Below are positions 56,610 to 63,998 of a DNA stretch of 64,000 bases, one piece after another. The DNA is from Thiomonas sp. X19 (GTDB taxonomy: Bacteria > Pseudomonadota > Gammaproteobacteria > Burkholderiales > Burkholderiaceae_C). The notes below the pieces were generated by a model, which saw nothing but the letters and a program-made list of their open reading frames with translations, had not been told where the DNA came from and ran no database searches. The position numbers and the translations under genes are program-made. Positions within the stretch are counted from its first letter, which is position 1. The number at the start of each line of letters is the position of its first letter. The DNA is taken from NCBI RefSeq assembly GCF_900089495.1, contig NZ_LT605203.1, positions 871,430 to 935,429 on the forward strand, in the 5' to 3' direction.

Positions 56610-58418
56610 ATGTGCGGAATCGTCGGCGCCGCAGCGCGCCACAACATCGTCCCCACCCTGCTGGAGGGCCTGCAGCGGCTGGAATACCGCGGCTACGACT
56701 CCTGCGGCCTGGCGGCGCTGAAGGACGGCGGCATCATCCGTCTGCGCACCACCCAGCGCGTGGCCGACCTGCGCAGGCAGGCGCAGAACCTGGACGCGCT
56801 CACCGGCATCTGCCACACGCGCTGGGCCACGCATGGCGCACCGGCCACGCACAACGCGCACCCCATGATCTCGCGCAGCCAGGTTGCCCTGGTGCACAAC
56901 GGCATCATCGAGAACCACGATGAACTGCGCGCCGAATTGCTGGCAGCCGGCTACACCTTCGACAGCCAGACCGACACCGAAGTCATCGCCCACCTGGTGC
57001 ACAGCCTCTACGCCGGCGACTTGTTCGCCGCCGTGCGCCTGGCCGCCAGCCGGCTGCGCGGCGCCTACGCCATCGCCGTGCTGCACACCGCCGAGCCGGG
57101 TGTGGTGGTGGGCGCGCGCGCCGGCAGTCCGCTGGTGCTGGGCCAGGGGCACGACGGCTTCTACATCGCCTCCGACGGCCTCGCCCTGGCCGGCGCCGCC
57201 CAGCGCGTCGCCTATCTCGAAGAAGGCGACGTGGTGCGCATCAGCCCCGATGCCGTTCAGGTGGTGGACGCCCGCCAGCGAGCCGCCCAGCGCGACTGGC
57301 ATGCCGTCGAGGCCTACAGCGGCGCGGCCGAGCTCGGCCCCTACCGCCACTACATGCAGAAGGAGATTTTCGAGCAGCCGCGCGCCGTGGCCGACACGCT
57401 GGAAGGCATTGCCACCATCGGCCCCGAGTTGTTCGGCGACAAGTCTGGTCAGCTCGCCGGCACGCGCCGCGTGCTCATCCTCGCCTGCGGCACCAGCCAT
57501 TACGCCGGCAGCGTGGCGCGGCACTGGATCGAGACCCTGGCGCGCATTCCGGTGGACGTGGAAGTGGCCAGCGAATACCGCACCCGCGACAGCGTGCCCG
57601 ACTCCGACACCCTGGTGATCGGCGTGTCGCAGTCCGGCGAAACCGCCGACACCCTTTCGGCCCTGCGCCACGCCCGCAGCCTGGGCATGACGCGCCAGCT
57701 CGCCATCTGCAACGTTGCCGGCAGCGCCATGATGCGCGAGTCCGCGCTGCGCTTCCTCACCCACGCCGGGGTTGAAATCGGCGTGGCCTCGACCAAGGCT
57801 TTCACCACCCAATTGGTGGCCCTGTTTTTACTGGCCCTGACGCTGGCCAAGCAGCGCGGCCGGCTCGCCGAGCACGCCGAGTCTGAGCATCTGCAGGCGC
57901 TGCGCCACTTGCCCGTGGCGTTGCAGGCAGCACTGGCGACCGAGCCGCAAATCATCGCCTGGGCCGAAGCCTTCACGCGCAAGAACAACGCCCTGTTCCT
58001 CGGCCGTGGCATGCACTTCCCCATCGCCCAGGAAGGCGCGCTCAAGCTCAAGGAAATTTCCTACATCCACGCCGAGGCCTACCCCGCCGGCGAACTCAAG
58101 CATGGCCCGCTGGCCCTGGTGACCGACGAGATGCCGGTGGTCGCCGTCGCCCCCAACGACGCGCTGCTCGACAAGCTCAAGAGCAATTTGCAGGAAGTGC
58201 GCGCGCGCGGCGGCGAGTTGTACGTTTTCACCGACGCCGGCACCCGCATCGAGTCCAGTCCAGGCGTGCACGCCATCCGCCTACCCGAGCACTACGCCTT
58301 GCTCTCCCCCATCGTGCACGTCATCCCGTTGCAATTGTTGGCCTATCACACCGCAGTGGCCCGCGGAACCGATGTCGACAAGCCGCGCAACCTGGCAAAA
58401 AGTGTCACGGTGGAGTGA
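56610..58418 (+). CDS. glmS: glutamine:fructose-6-phosphate amidotransferase
   Basis: A 602-residue enzyme making glucosamine-6-phosphate. The glutaminase nucleophile is C2 (MCGIVGAA). Two SIS domains follow ([29 protein letters not shown]). The last residues [15 protein letters not shown] are the conserved 3' end that TnsD of Tn7 recognises. Length normal. A Tn7-like repeat cluster begins 23-33 bp after the stop. Confidence 0.98.
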
Positions 58419-58854
58419 CTGCGCGTTGCTACGCCCGGGTTGATTGTGAAGAATAAAGTCCGTCGGGCGAGAATAAAGTCAGTCGGAGTAGTGCAAAGTT
58501 CGTCGAAGTGATTTGCCCCCCCGCCAAGTCTTCATGGCGGACGGTGTGTGCTCTGGCGATAGGATCTGACGTGCCTGTTGGCGTCAGGCAGCTGTCGGCC
58601 ATCAGCGGTCGTCGAGCTACCGAGGCCCAGCGTCAGATCCAGGCTGATTGCTGTCGTTCCCTTTTTGGCTGGTCAATAACCGCGACCAAGGAAAGCCGAC
58701 TTGCACGCTTGCGAAAGAGGCCATCCTCAATGCTTCGGTAACCCACCGATCCTGTTCTCGTTTTAACCGGACACGACGGAAGCTCCATAATGAATGACTT
58801 GCACCCGCGCTCGACCGATGATGCGATGTTCTTGCACGCTTAGGGTTGCCACCG
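58419..58854. other. non-coding gap after glmS (attTn7 region)
   Basis: About 436 bp, lower in GC than most of the window. It contains the three Tn7-end-like repeats (58451-58510) and a 10-bp inverted repeat, GGATCTGACG 58562-58571 with CGTCAGATCC 58631-58640. TTGCACGCTT recurs at 58701 and ~58832. No frame here looks like a protein. The right part must hold the promoter of the CDF transporter gene. Confidence 0.7.
58445..58510. mobile_element. candidate Tn7-like transposon end with three TnsB-like repeats
   Basis: Three abutting 20-bp units: 58451-58470, 58471-58490 and 58491-58510. The first two begin GAATAAAGTC; the third is diverged (GTGCAAAGTT). From memory the TnsB sites of Tn7 share the AATAAAGTC core. 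A terminal TGT is present at 58445-58447, 26 bp after the glmS stop, close to the ~25 bp used by Tn7. TTGAT (58440-58444) would be the target-site copy. The other end was not found in the window. Confidence 0.6.
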
Positions 58855-59814
58855 ATGCCTGAATGGTCCGGTTCCCGTGCCGTGATCTATGCGGCCCTTG
58901 CAGGCAACCTGCTGATTGCGATGAGCAAGTTCGCTGCAGCGGCGTTTTCCGGCAGTTCGGCGATGTGGAGCGAGGGCGTGCATTCGCTGGTCGACAGCGT
59001 CAACGAACTGCTTTTGCTGTATGGCATCCATCGTGCGAAGGCGCCGCCGGATCAGACGCATCCATTCGGGTATGGGCGCGAGCTGTACTTCTGGAGTTTC
59101 ATCGTCGCTTTGCTGGTATTGGCGGTCGGCGCCGGTGTGTCACTGTTCGAAGGGGTGATGCATTTGCGCACCGTGACCCCGATCGAGAACCCCTGGATCA
59201 GTTATGTCGTGCTGGGGATATCGGTCGTGTTCGAGGGCGGCTCGTGGTCGATTGCGCTACGCGAGTTCCGCGCGCGCAAGGGCCGCCTGGGCTATTTCGA
59301 GGCGTTTCGGCAGAGCAAGGATCCAAGCATGTTTACCGTGCTGCTCGAAGACAGCGCCGCGCTCATCGGCCTGCTGATCGCCTTCGCCGGCATTTTGGGT
59401 GCGCAAGTGTTCGACGCGCCGTGGCTGGACGGCACCGCCTCGATCGGTATTGCTGCGGTTCTCGCCATCTCGGCCATGCTGCTGGCGCGGGAAAGCAAGG
59501 GGCTGCTGATCGGCGAACTGGCACACCCGAGGGTGCGCGAGTCCATTCTCGCCATCGCGCAAGGGGATGCAGGCGTACGCAAGGCCAACGGTGTGCTGAC
59601 CATGCAGATGGGACCCAATCAGGTGGTCGTCGCATTGAGTGCTGAATTCGAGGACGCGTTGACCATCCCCGAGGTCGAGGACTGCATCAACCGCATCGAG
59701 AACGCCGCACGGGAAGCGCACGCCGAAATCATCGCACTGTTCATCAAGCCCCAAACCGCGGAGACTTGGCGAGAACGTCGCAAGATTCGGGAGCGCGAGA
59801 TCGACGCACTCTGA
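58855..59814 (+). CDS. cation diffusion facilitator (CDF) family transporter
   Basis: A 319-residue transporter: six membrane helices (to ~210) and a C-terminal cytoplasmic domain. Helix 2 has the metal-site motif HSLVDSVNE (HxxxD); helix 5 has LLEDSAALIG. It would export Zn, Fe, Co or Mn by proton antiport. Metal choice cannot be read. ATG 58855 is used; TTG 58846 is an alternative. First gene of the putative attTn7 cargo. Confidence 0.93.
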   Translation: MPEWSGSRAVIYAALAGNLLIAMSKFAAAAFSGSSAMWSEGVHSLVDSVNELLLLYGIHRAKAPPDQTHPFGYGRELYFWSFIVALLVLAVGAGVSLFEGVMHLRTVTPIENPWISYVVLGISVVFEGGSWSIALREFRARKGRLGYFEAFRQSKDPSMFTVLLEDSAALIGLLIAFAGILGAQVFDAPWLDGTASIGIAAVLAISAMLLARESKGLLIGELAHPRVRESILAIAQGDAGVRKANGVLTMQMGPNQVVVALSAEFEDALTIPEVEDCINRIENAAREAHAEIIALFIKPQTAETWRERRKIREREIDAL

Positions 59815-59980: not shown

Positions 59981-60676
59981 TCATAGCAATGCCCCGACCA
60001 GCGCCCCGATGCCCGCAGTCACAGCCATGGCCAGCGCCCCCCAGAACGTCACGCGTATGGCGCCCCGCATCACCCCGGCGCCGCCCACGCGCGCCGCCAG
60101 CGCGCCCAAGAGCGCGAGAAAGAGCAGCGAAGCCCCGGAGACGAAGACGATGACGCTCGCCATCGGAGCCACGGCGGTCACGATGAGCGGCATGGCCGCT
60201 CCCGCGGCGAAGCTGCCGGCCGACGCGAGGGCGGCCTGGATCGGGCGGGCTCTGAGTGTCTCGGAGATGCCGAGTTCGTCGCGGGCATGCGCGCCCAGGG
60301 CATCGTGCGCCATGAGTTGGTCGGCGACCTGTTTCGCGAGCGCGTGATCGAGGCCGCGGCCCACATAGATCGCGGTCAGTTCCTTGTGCTCGCCCTTGTC
60401 GTCTGCTTTCAACTCGGCGCGCTCACCCTCGATGTCGGCCTGTTCGGTATCGGCCTGCGAGTGCACGGAAACATATTCGCCTGCGGCCATCGACATGGCC
60501 CCCGCGACCAGACCCGAGACCGCCGCGACCAATACGTTGCCGTGAGTTCCGTGGGCAGCGGCCACACCCAGCACCAGACTCGCCGTGGAAACGATACCGT
60601 CATTCGCGCCCAATACCGCCGCGCGCAGCCATCCGCTGTTTTCTGTGCGGTGTTTTTCTCTGTGGTGTACTGCCAT
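59981..60676 (-). CDS. VIT1/CCC1 family iron/manganese transporter
   Basis: A 231-residue membrane protein. WLRAAVLGANDGIVSTASLVLGVAAA is the CCC1/VIT1 signature, followed by GAMSMAAGEYVSVHSQADTEQADI (helix 2 and the Glu-rich cytoplasmic domain). The C-terminal half has three more helices. Such proteins move Fe(II) or Mn(II) out of the cytoplasm. The start at 60676 (MAVHHREKHRTENSGW) is in line with proteobacterial homologues. Convergent with the CDF gene; 52 bp before the Nramp-related gene end. Confidence 0.93.
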   Translation of the reverse strand: MAVHHREKHRTENSGWLRAAVLGANDGIVSTASLVLGVAAAHGTHGNVLVAAVSGLVAGAMSMAAGEYVSVHSQADTEQADIEGERAELKADDKGEHKELTAIYVGRGLDHALAKQVADQLMAHDALGAHARDELGISETLRARPIQAALASAGSFAAGAAMPLIVTAVAPMASVIVFVSGASLLFLALLGALAARVGGAGVMRGAIRVTFWGALAMAVTAGIGALVGALL

Positions 60677-60728
60677 TCTTGATGCCTCATGGATAATCGG
60701 ATGGATGCTACTGCCGCAGGGCAAGTCG

Positions 60729-62024
60729 CTACTTCCCCCATGTCGCGAACATGATGATCGCGGCCACCGCCATCACGAACGTGGCGATCCAACCCAGGAT
60801 CTTCAGCCAGGGCGGAAGCACGAACTTGCCCATGATGCGCGGGTTCGTGCCGAGCAGCATGATCACGACCATGATCGGTACCGCGGCAACTCCGTTGATC
60901 ACCGCGCTCCAGTAGAGCGCCTTGATTGGGTCGATGGCGGTGAAATTGAGCGCCATTCCGACCATGCTGGCGACGATCAAGACCGTGTAGAACACCTTGG
61001 CCTGATGCGGTTTGCGTTCCAATCCGCTGGGACTTCCGAGTGCGTCAGCGACGCCGTACGCCGCGGACCCGGCCAATACGGGCACGGCGAGAAGACCGGT
61101 GCCGATGATTCCCGCGGCGAACACGGCGAAAGTAAACGGACCGGCCAGCGGACGCAGCGCAGCCGCTGCCTGCGCGGAAGAATTGATGTCAGTCACGCCG
61201 TGCGCGTGAAGGACCACGGCGGTCGTGACGATGATGAAAAACGCCACGACTTGCGAGAAGACCATCCCCGAGATCGTATCGATGCCGATGCGCTGCAAGG
61301 CGTCCGGACCTTGCTGCGGTTTGCGCTTGAGCGGTTGCCGCTCGTTACTCGTGTCGCGTACTTCTTCCACTTCTTGTGCCGCTTGCCAAAAAAAGAGATA
61401 AGGACTGATGGTTGTACCCATGACGGCCACAATGGCGACCGCATATCTGGCATCGAGCGCGATGTGCGGAAAGAAAACCCCCTGCGCTACGTCGCCCCAC
61501 GGGACCTGGATTGCGAAAACAGTTGCTACATAGGCAAAAAGACTGAGCGTGAGCACCTTGAGGATGGGCGAGTAGTACGAAAAAGGGACGAACACCTGAA
61601 GCGCAAGCGAGAGCAGCGCAAACGCGGCCGTATACGCCAGCGCCGGACCCCCGATCAAGAGTTTGAGGGCGCTCCCCATGGCGCCGATGTCAGCCGCGAG
61701 ATTGATCACGTTGGCAACCAGCAGTGCAAATACCACGCCATACACGATCAAATGCGGGTAGTGCTTCCGAATATTGGCGCCGACCCCGGCACCGGTCACA
61801 CGACCAATGCGCGCACTGATCGTCTGGATCGCGATCATCAGCGGCAGCGCCAGTACTACCGTCCATAAGGTTGCATAGCCGTAGGCTGCGCCAACTTGGG
61901 AGTATGTGGCAATGCCACTGGGATCGTCGTCGGCGGCTCCTGCAATCAGTCCAGCGCTCAGTCGCCGCACGATTGGAGTTTTCGTTTTCGCCAGCTTAGG
62001 AATGCCTTTCAATGGGGCTTTCAT
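60729..62024 (-). CDS. Nramp-related divalent metal transporter
   Basis: A 431-residue protein with about 11 helices. The helix 1 motif is AGAADDDPSGIATYSQVGAAYGY, not the DPGN of MntH; helix 6 reads VMGTTISPYLFFWQA and lacks the MPH methionine. These changes mark the Nramp-related group, of which some members transport Mg2+ rather than transition metals. The start at 62024 (MKAPLKGIPK) has AGGA close by. With the CDF and VIT genes it forms a metal-handling cassette. Confidence 0.92.
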   Translation of the reverse strand: MKAPLKGIPKLAKTKTPIVRRLSAGLIAGAADDDPSGIATYSQVGAAYGYATLWTVVLALPLMIAIQTISARIGRVTGAGVGANIRKHYPHLIVYGVVFALLVANVINLAADIGAMGSALKLLIGGPALAYTAAFALLSLALQVFVPFSYYSPILKVLTLSLFAYVATVFAIQVPWGDVAQGVFFPHIALDARYAVAIVAVMGTTISPYLFFWQAAQEVEEVRDTSNERQPLKRKPQQGPDALQRIGIDTISGMVFSQVVAFFIIVTTAVVLHAHGVTDINSSAQAAAALRPLAGPFTFAVFAAGIIGTGLLAVPVLAGSAAYGVADALGSPSGLERKPHQAKVFYTVLIVASMVGMALNFTAIDPIKALYWSAVINGVAAVPIMVVIMLLGTNPRIMGKFVLPPWLKILGWIATFVMAVAAIIMFATWGK

Positions 62025-62237
62025 TGTCCTGCGCGACTGTGCGCGTTCAGAGTGAATATCCAGCAACCACGCGCTGCTGGTTGGCTTCCTCGTGACGGCG
62101 AACTCCACCGAACGGGTGTAGATCGTCACATGCTTGAACCCATAGGCTGCGCTGCATTTTCCAGCCGTCCGCGAACTCGTCGGAGGCCGAGCAGCCAGAA
62201 CTGCAGAGGCCCTTCGGGCTGTGCACCTTACGCCCGC

Positions 62238-62282: not shown

Positions 62283-63998
62283 ACCTGAATCCGTGACTTC
62301 CGATAATCCATCGACTTGAAAGCTGATTGTGACGGCCCGATTTTCCCGATTTCCCGCAGGTTCACGGTTCGAGCGCCGTGTCGAAGGGGGCTGTGGGGCT
62401 GTGCGCGAACGATCGGCCCCCTTGATCGGTCATTTCGGGTGGGTTGCGCGCAGCCGTTCCCCCGCCGAGCCCTTGTGGCCAGCGTCTTGGGGTGCTGGGA
62501 AAGCTTGGACTGCGTCTTCAGCCGCTGGCGGCGAACTGCGCATGCAGATCGCAAAAGGCACGGGCTGCCTTGTCGTTGGCGCCCAGTCCCAACCACAGCC
62601 GCCCGCCATGGTTGATCACGCGTGCTGCGCGGATGACAAGTTCCTGGATCACAGTCTTCAGACGCCGTCGCCTGGCCGCATGGCGCACCGGTGCATGCGG
62701 CCCCAGCAGCCCTTGCTGCCCCATGAGGCGCAGCACGTTCATCGTCAGGGCCGCAAGCTGGCAGACAAGATCGTTCGTGTCGAACTTCCCCGAGGGCAGT
62801 CGCTCCAGATCCATGTCGGTTTTGAATTCCGCATGGAACTGCTCGTGCGTAGCGTGCCCGGCGTACAGGTCGATGATCGCCTCGGCGCTGATGGCCTTGG
62901 GCAAGCTTGTCGTCCAGCCCTCCAAGATGATCTCGGGGACCAAAAACTGCTGGCCACGGGCATCGACGGTGCGCTCCGTGATGCGCACAATGCGGCGCAG
63001 GCGATGGGCGATGCCTTCGACCTGCACGGCCACCTCCCAAACCGCCACGCGCTTGCCTGCGCGCGGATGCTGCCACAACAAACCCCCTTCCAGTTCCTGC
63101 CGTCGCAAGACCTCCAGAGGATCGGTCTTGCGGGGATTCCACTTGATCAGAACATCGACCCGGGGCAGTCCTGGCCTGTTGCAGCGCTGCATGTCGGCCA
63201 TCAAGGCGGCCGAGCAAAACCCCGCATCCATGCGCACGAGAATCGGCGCCTTGGGGCCTGCGGTCGACAGGCGCTGCGCCATGGGCACGGCCGTCTCGAG
63301 GTTGTAGGTCGTCTCCGAAGCCGAGTGCTGCGCGCCCGGACGTAGGGCGAACTCCAGGCAAAACCCATGCGTGCCCAGGTAGGCCGCCAGCGGGCAGTAG
63401 CCATCGACCCCCGCGTAGGTGCGGCTCACCCCATCCTTGGCTGTGCCCGAGTTGTCCATCGCGAAGGTGTCGATGTCCAGCGGCACATGACCGCAAGGCA
63501 AAAGACCATAGTCCGGTTGGCTCTTGCGCAGCAGCGCTTCAATCGCCTGGGAGGTGAAGTCAAACCACAGGGCGGCCTGCGCATCCAGGCGCTGGCGCAG
63601 GGTGGGCGAGGACGGCACACCCACCAGACCCAGCGCCTCCTGGAAGAAACGATCGCCTCGAAAGCCTTCGATGGCATCGAAGTCGCTCTTGCTCTGCGCG
63701 AGCAAGCCAACATAGCTGCGCATCAGTGTGCTGGGCGGCAGTCCGCCGCGGCAAGGCCACTGGGCATCCAGGCGTTTGAACAGAGGATCGAGGCGCTTGA
63801 GGTGATGACCGACAAGGGCCAGACCGGCCACCGGCGTCAGGTCATAGTCGAGTTGCTTGACGCGAAATCCAAACCCCATGCCATACCCCGGAACGTTCAC
63901 CCGCTGGGTGAGAAGACAAAGGGGTCATTTTATCGAATAAACCATTATGCATCAACAACTTATGAAAATTCCGCATGCCCGAGCTCACGGATTCAGGT
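62283..63998 (-). mobile_element. IS1380-family insertion sequence, complete
   Basis: Bounded by 14-bp perfect inverted repeats: ACCTGAATCCGTGA at 62283-62296 and its complement at 63985-63998. The 1716-bp length suits the IS1380 family (~1.7 kb). It carries one intact transposase gene. The target duplication cannot be fully checked because the window ends two bases after the right repeat; AATA (62279-62282) on the left is compatible with the AA seen on the right. Confidence 0.88.
62518..63900 (-). CDS. IS1380-family transposase
   Basis: A 460-residue DDE transposase with the IS4-like fold. LDIDTFAMDNSGTAKDGVSRTYAGVDGYCPLAAYLG holds the first catalytic Asp, VRMDAGFCSAALM the second, and HATHEQFHAEFKTDMDLERLPSG the Glu region. 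The frame is intact, so the element may still be active. Start at 63900 (MNVPGYGMGFGF). Confidence 0.95.
   Translation of the reverse strand: MNVPGYGMGFGFRVKQLDYDLTPVAGLALVGHHLKRLDPLFKRLDAQWPCRGGLPPSTLMRSYVGLLAQSKSDFDAIEGFRGDRFFQEALGLVGVPSSPTLRQRLDAQAALWFDFTSQAIEALLRKSQPDYGLLPCGHVPLDIDTFAMDNSGTAKDGVSRTYAGVDGYCPLAAYLGTHGFCLEFALRPGAQHSASETTYNLETAVPMAQRLSTAGPKAPILVRMDAGFCSAALMADMQRCNRPGLPRVDVLIKWNPRKTDPLEVLRRQELEGGLLWQHPRAGKRVAVWEVAVQVEGIAHRLRRIVRITERTVDARGQQFLVPEIILEGWTTSLPKAISAEAIIDLYAGHATHEQFHAEFKTDMDLERLPSGKFDTNDLVCQLAALTMNVLRLMGQQGLLGPHAPVRHAARRRRLKTVIQELVIRAARVINHGGRLWLGLGANDKAARAFCDLHAQFAASG

Follow-up and report, generated by a model that had tools for sequence, protein, structure and literature searches.

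As described in two papers (PMC11406308 and PMC2918618), Tn7 is inserted by a cut-and-paste reaction with a 5-bp duplication; TnsD binds the end of glmS, TnsB binds sites in the transposon ends, and Tn7 exhibits target immunity. PMC3384475 cites three Tn7-like islands at attTn7, and according to PMC8649781, an element that lands in or beside another may give multiple left and right ends. PMC1475584 contains a primer with a Tn7 end sequence (tgtgggcggacaataaagtcttaaactgaa), in which the distance from TGT to AATAAAGTC is 11 nt. Here, the region downstream of glmS in Thiomonas sp. X19 was analyzed. Since Tn7-like islands at attTn7 are already in the literature, the element in this region is classed as a further example of them; our search found no paper joining Thiomonas and Tn7-like elements, and this statement is confined to that search.

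Tandem repeats downstream of glmS

The window, meaning the whole 64-kb stretch of DNA that was analyzed, is C3:871,430–935,429 within the 4.67-Mb genome. The 602-aa ORF at 56610–58418 (forward strand), which we take to be glmS from established knowledge of the family, has the attTn7 site at its 3′ end. GlmS matches of at least 548 of the 602 residues were obtained in 18 of 25 same-genus genomes including its own, and those in the remaining seven were partial or distant. The stop codon is followed by a 22-nt spacer (58419–58440), by the right-end terminus TGATTGTGAAG (58441–58451), which starts with TGA, and by three TnsB-site-like units, AATAAAGTCCGTCGGGC (unit 1, 58452–58468), AATAAAGTCAGTCGGAG (unit 2, 58472–58488), and TGCAAAGTTCGTCGAAG (unit 3, 58492–58508), all on the forward strand. 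Units 1 and 2 hold an exact AATAAAGTC motif; unit 3 is degenerate and reads TGCAAAGTT, without the exact core. The starts of the units are spaced by 20 bp, and across the three 20-bp units, the identity to unit 1 is 20/20, 16/20, and 12/20. A degenerate third unit resembling that of the window (TGCAAAGTC) is also found in the congener G015.

The three tandem 20-bp repeats that the original prediction placed after glmS are real, since the repeat score of the 130 nt after glmS was equalled in none of 500 first-order Markov shuffles, and the core assigned to all of them holds for units 1 and 2 but not for unit 3. Two exact copies of AATAAAGTC are present in the window versus 0.04 expected, a number reached in none of 100 shuffles, and GAATAAAGTC is restricted to positions 58452 and 58472 in the whole genome. 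A TGT, which had been predicted to form the terminus, does occur at 58445, 26 nt past the glmS stop, but it is out of register. The TGA at 58441, 22 nt after the stop, was taken as the terminus because 11 nt separate it from AATAAAGTC, as TGT is separated from AATAAAGTC in the Tn7 end (we assume that the letters of the primer are those of the right end, nearest glmS). The last 5 nt of the spacer (CGGGT, 58436–58440) presumably represent one copy of a target-site duplication, a status that we only infer because no second copy was found.

Families of ends in the genus

GlmS was searched in 41 genomes, consisting of the own genome, 24 others of the genus, and 16 of the same order. Within the genus, 14 glmS 3′ flanks from 13 genomes were readable (at least 90 nt), three were too short, and three loci were without the glmS end. 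The tandem array was equalled by at most 3 of 500 Markov shuffles in 12 of the 14 readable flanks; the exceptions were G001 (81/500), which has a type C array by the site model, and G016 (219/500), for which no array after glmS was shown. None of the 11 readable same-order flanks (of 12) reached the array level of the genus, the lowest value being 99/500.

The arrays of the genus sort into families A–E, with type A in the window, G012, and G015, and types B, C, D, and E in the others. The type A end is AATAAAGTCnGTCGG, and its terminus lies 22 nt after the glmS stop in all three genus flanks that have type A there. A recognised terminus was located 22–25 nt past the stop in 10 of the 14 readable flanks, those of G001, G014, G016, and G020 being unmatched. 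A 34-bp pattern of two A units (up to three mismatches) occurs at six places in 5 of 28 genus genomes, all six of them 3′ of glmS and on its strand, and the reversed-pattern control gave no hit. TGA starts the A ends of the own genome, G011, G012, G015, G021, and of other genera, and TCA is found at the A left ends of G021 and G058. The A and B ends have the core TAAAGTC in common. The comparison with close relatives that had been suggested came out in favor of the original prediction: the nearest relative (94% GlmS identity) bears a different array family at the same site and not the same three repeats.

Empty attTn7 sites were sought in 25 genus genomes (G041–G043 lay outside the glmS examination) by means of glmS and an ABC-permease gene on one contig. 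Three genomes were usable and none of them had an empty site, the distance between the two genes being about 13.6 kb in the own genome, 17.9 kb in G001, and 167.7 kb in G021.

Stacked elements at attTn7

In G021, about 168 kb are occupied by three elements with both ends and the right end of a fourth, and the right ends face glmS. Element D (35,019 bp) contains tnsABCD and is flanked by CCATG on both sides. Element B has its right array at 36.06 kb and its left array at 89.9 kb, with TnsA-, TnsB-, TnsC-, and TnsD-like hits inside and unequal 5-bp flanks (CCATG and CCAGC). Element A1 (21,813 bp) has an exact 5-bp duplication, AGCTT, and for the second A copy, the right end was found and the left end was not identified. 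In G011, beyond a D element with GTTGT on both sides lie an E right end, then a C left end and an A right end, the E right and C left ends being another mismatched pair. Altogether, exact 5-bp duplications were found for the A element of G021 and for three D elements. In G015, the last A unit is followed at a distance of about 45 bp by the start of the first B unit, and no element body intervenes. The simplest reading of these arrangements is that newcomers insert between glmS and older elements, leaving single ends behind. In G031, which belongs to another genus, glmS arrays occur in both orientations at 1.5–14 kb of locus L133, where an A-like left end is followed by a right-end-like pair; perhaps this is stacking in a second genus.

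The cargo of A1 in G021 (L153 and L154) comprises a helicase-type AAA protein, a kinase, a PP2C phosphatase, and a sigma-54 activator with an RtcR-type match, and looks like a defence or conflict island.

The tnsABCD set of the own genome lies inside a D element at C3:2,157,322–2,203,801 (46,480 bp, GCCAC at both sides), the end type of which, AAATAAAGTnCTATCCTG, is distinct from A and B. This element (loci L007, L008, and L138) is two-ended and stands away from glmS, and its Tns proteins are 97.5–99.6% identical to those encoded at glmS in G021 and G011. Its left flank, as we read the sequence, resembles the middle of a membrane-protein gene. From their translations, its cargo (L007:3014–6197 and L007:9707–11800) includes three tandem tyrosine-recombinase-like genes and a large serine-recombinase-like gene.

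Type A ends beside tns genes

Element A1 of G021 encodes a 684-aa protein that matches the TnsB of the D element in the own genome (E 3e-12 to 4e-12) and, when used alone, weakly matches E. coli TnsB (E 0.017). A1 also holds an AAA (TnsC-like) protein and, adjoining an IS, the second half of a TnsA-like gene. A search of 199 genomes with the A1 TnsB at E 1e-20 gave matches in five, G021, G003, G045, G056, and G058. In the latter four, a TnsA-like ORF precedes tnsB, a TnsC-like gene follows it, and TnsD-like genes lie on the opposite strand. The A arrays of G058 bound 33,396 bp containing TnsD-, TnsA-, TnsB-, and TnsC-like genes, with unequal 5-bp flanks (CGCAA and GCAAA). In G045, an A array is located about 8.7 kb before the TnsD genes and shows the 60/52-bp spacing of the G058 left end; its partner was not identified, and one TnsD protein of G045 matches Pfam TnsD at 3.8e-66. 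The stretches fetched from G003 and G056 yielded no A array, and glmS was not seen in those of G003, G045, G056, and G058 (60 kb examined for the last).

Another 80 glmS loci (996,214 bases; no Thiomonas among their titles, and some identified only at the order level) were scanned with the site models. They had been planned as a negative control; since 17 tandem pairs of types A and B were found in 12 of the 80 loci, all 17 of them 3′ of glmS and on its strand, the loci are treated as a finding and not as a control. In Polaromonas sp. OV174 (L032; G199 C30), an A end lies 22 nt after the glmS stop, and a TnsD hit together with TnsA-, TnsB-, and TnsC-like genes is located about 13–21 kb from it in the same 40-kb stretch, in which the scan found no left end. 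When the genomes behind eight array-bearing glmS loci were searched for the A-lineage TnsB, two matched at E 1e-10, Polaromonas and Neopusillimonas maritima. In the latter, the matches to TnsA, TnsB, TnsC, and TnsD occur 22–29 kb from the start of the stretch and run the opposite way. Six of the eight genomes had no TnsB match, and thus left-over ends lacking tns genes may be common.

Tns proteins of the type A lineage

TnsA and TnsB of the A lineage gave no Pfam or NCBIfam family above the cut-off in the copies tested; one of four TnsB homologues scanned had a Mu-transpos_C match below the cut-off (E 0.0025). A profile built from six A-lineage TnsA proteins (G003, G045, G056, G058, Polaromonas, and Neopusillimonas) retrieved, from a collection of 11 proteins, all three that are TnsA (E 6e-11, 1e-9, and 4e-5; 0.39 for the next protein), with an hhalign probability of 98.4.

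Using the G058 TnsB as the query, 75 homologues were obtained among 7,996 candidates scored. They are mostly unnamed or annotated as "hypothetical protein," one is called TnsB-related, and two are called Transposase (UniRef). PF27135 is listed for nine of the 75, and it gave no match in our Pfam scan. In an alignment of 55 of these homologues, D332, D416, and E452 are invariant, and D416 and E452 lie 36 positions from each other, which fits a DDE transposase. Against E. coli TnsB (7pik), the profile of the 55 A-lineage proteins scored 2.1e-16 across 508 profile positions. The predicted model of an A-lineage TnsB had a mean pLDDT of 84.9 and a pTM of 0.52. Its top Foldseek hit was E. coli TnsB (8.5e-20), followed by CAST TnsB chains and the TnsABCD transpososome, with low query TM-scores of about 0.3.

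Cargo and far boundary of the island

As predicted, no tns gene is visible in the window beyond the repeats. The four larger genes there encode, by Pfam scan, a cation-efflux (CDF) protein (58846–59814, forward strand; PF01545, E 1.9e-36), a VIT1-family protein (59981–60724, reverse strand; PF01988, E 1e-64), an Nramp-family protein (60729–62129, reverse strand; PF01566, E 2.9e-80), the true start of which is possibly further in, and an IS transposase; none belongs to the cas genes that, together with a CRISPR array, mark CRISPR-associated Tn7-like transposons. The insertion sequence occupies 62283–63998 on the reverse strand, and 14-bp inverted repeats bound its DDE transposase (62518–63900). 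The transposase gene recurs beyond the window, in inverted orientation, at C3:938,729–940,111; this IS copy has different ends, since L009 contains each of the exact 14-mers just once. Among the best 120 matches listed, the best named match of the cation-efflux protein was from Thiomonas sp. 15-66-11 (92% identity). The metal-transport cargo block recurs in three other genomes, always on a contig separate from glmS; in G011 this contig is large, and in G016 and G020 it is too short to gauge the distance. No end array was found beside the block in these three stretches, except for one weak single unit. In a plasmid search with the junction as the query, 9 of 10 records matched the cation-efflux part only and one matched the glmS end only.

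The sequence past the window contains, as read from translations, a second IS family, a catalase-like frame broken close to the second IS copy, and a transposase gene of the IS30 type. The far boundary of the island had been expected to be a matching A end; it is instead an inverted B-type left end on the opposite strand at C3:942,913–943,068, which is 83% identical over 156 bp to the B left end of G021. No B right end was found in the own genome, in which this left end is the sole B terminus. The A right end and this B left end are 13.2 kb apart, and the GC content of the stretch between them is 0.616; in the initial 56 kb of the window it is 0.666. A gene that we read from its translation as an ABC permease begins 0.4 kb past the B left end. 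In G001 and G021, too, the permease and its ATPase neighbor follow the island, and G001 has further neighbors in common.

Two other features of this region were noted. Frames at L009:12484–13253 resemble an MNT-HEPN toxin–antitoxin pair in translation, and L009:12612–13073 shows 72% DNA identity to sequence following the second A right end in G021. Past the island, L009:16508–19767 (C3:945,507–948,766) holds SenA-, SenB-, and SelD-like genes, presumably a selenoneine-type set, and this set has counterparts in G001.

Origin of the island and alternative explanations

As judged from sequence comparison, positions 58441–58508 very probably represent a divergent type A right end of a Tn7-like element at attTn7, and the island beside them the decayed remnant of an A/B stack. 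The assignment to a Tn7-like right end, already made in the original prediction, is supported by the same end type standing beside tnsA/B/C/D-like genes in Polaromonas, Neopusillimonas, G045, G058, and the decayed copy of G021. A type A element would have been inserted 22 nt past the glmS stop by a TnsD-type selector, in a cut-and-paste reaction with a 5-bp duplication, both steps being modeled on Tn7 biology. The units are predicted to be binding sites of the A-lineage TnsB from their position, spacing, and co-occurrence with tns genes. Most likely, A and B elements were stacked at attTn7, as in present-day congeners, and a deletion or an IS-linked rearrangement may have removed the inner A-left and B-right ends and both tns sets, as their absence suggests. 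The remaining hybrid island would consist of the A right end, the metal-transport cargo, insertion sequences, and the B left end. An A left end too degenerate for the scans could remain in it.

The original prediction left open whether the element is long, decayed, or equipped with tns genes at its far end, and of these, decay is what the extension past 64 kb points to. That the A element is instead still complete and able to move, its left end and tns genes being located at a greater distance, is very unlikely. Such a length would not be unusual, as the two-ended A element of G058 spans 33.4 kb and the tns genes of Polaromonas lie 13–21 kb from the right end, but in the own genome, genes located past the island in G001 and G021 are reached 13.6 kb after glmS. 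No inverted A unit scoring at least 10 bits was detected in the island. Genome-wide, the A terminus pattern (up to three mismatches) yielded, besides the two array hits, two lone matches with three mismatches, at 0.44 and 2.50 Mb, and the reversed control gave one. Searches of the island for tns relics were negative at E 0.05 with A-lineage, B-element, and A1 proteins and at E 1e-5 with D-element proteins. Pfam TnsA and TnsD matches in the own genome are confined to 2.17 Mb, with none near glmS, a weak TnsA-domain match below the cut-off lies at 3.07 Mb, and the A-lineage TnsB has no match at E 1e-20. An extension without a matching far end and without tns genes had been named beforehand as an outcome that would refute a Tn7-like end, and this is the outcome for the copy in the window; the right-end reading is kept because relatives supply both.

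A second alternative, in which the A right end and the B left end form a working hybrid element moved in trans by another TnsABC, is similarly improbable. The TAAAGTC core present in both end types and the one tnsABCD set of the genome would suit it, but that resident set belongs to an element with the third end type, AAATAAAGTnCTATCCTG, and the 5-bp flanks of the A-right/B-left pair differ (CGGGT and GGTGA). That the units are native to the 3′ region of glmS, as regulatory repeats or a terminator, can practically be dismissed: 12 of the 14 readable genus flanks do bear some array, but the families vary by species and even the nearest relative has another one, the 11 readable same-order flanks stay below the genus score, inverted arrays close tns-bearing elements tens of kilobases away, and the paired ends and target duplications of relatives largely refute this idea.

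This island illustrates that an end array by itself, read by eye, can reveal an attTn7 island overlooked by gene annotation: no tns gene was found inside, and none of the tested TnsA and TnsB copies of the lineage passes a Pfam cut-off. Within the genus, the range runs from stacks of two-ended elements down to lone ends, and this natural series lends itself to studying the sharing of one attachment site by unrelated Tn7-like elements, the decay of such islands, and the possible exclusion of newcomers by left-over ends. A broader proposal, which we offer tentatively and regard as rather unlikely in its entirety, is that type A is a distinct, largely unannotated lineage of Burkholderiales (TGA..TCA termini, TnsA and TnsB hard to detect with Pfam, and its own TnsD directed to attTn7), that attTn7 is a site of serial stacking in the genus, and that orphan ends persist, still bind TnsB, and exclude the same lineage. 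If true, the orphan ends would be scars giving target immunity against the type A lineage. The two A right ends of side-by-side A elements in G021 speak against strict exclusion.

Comparison with known Tn7-like systems

Compared with what is typical of Tn7-like elements, the window has, next to the terminus, an array of short predicted TnsB-type sites (starting at 58452, 58472, and 58492) and an insertion point 22 nt after glmS, within the range of about 20–25 nt. Inverted partner ends exist in G021 and G058, and apart from the two 3-mismatch hits none was found in the own genome; tnsA/B/C with tnsD/tniQ are present in A-type relatives and were not found in the island. Termini of the form TGT..ACA, as in Tn7, are usual, whereas type A ends have TGA and, on the left, TCA.

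The resemblance to Tn7 of E. coli lies in the position just 3′ of glmS, the tandem sites with the core AATAAAGTC, and the 11 nt from terminus to core; through relatives, it extends to the 5-bp duplication (A element of G021) and to the TnsB similarity and DDE residues of the A lineage. The element is divergent, as had been predicted: beyond the core, its unit continues with nGTCGG in place of TTAAAC of Tn7, and its terminus is TGA in place of TGT. Moreover, the copy in the window has neither tns genes nor a partner end, and in G058 and Polaromonas, unlike in Tn7, a long distance separates the tns genes from the right end, and tnsD runs on the other strand. The G058 element, from another genus of the same family, shares the type A end, has arrays at both ends with tns genes inside, and differs in the lack of glmS in the 60 kb examined and in its unequal 5-bp flanks. 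The element of Polaromonas sp. OV174 has kept the TnsD-, TnsA-, TnsB-, and TnsC-like genes that the copy in the window lacks, and the two agree in bearing a type A end exactly 22 nt after the glmS stop.
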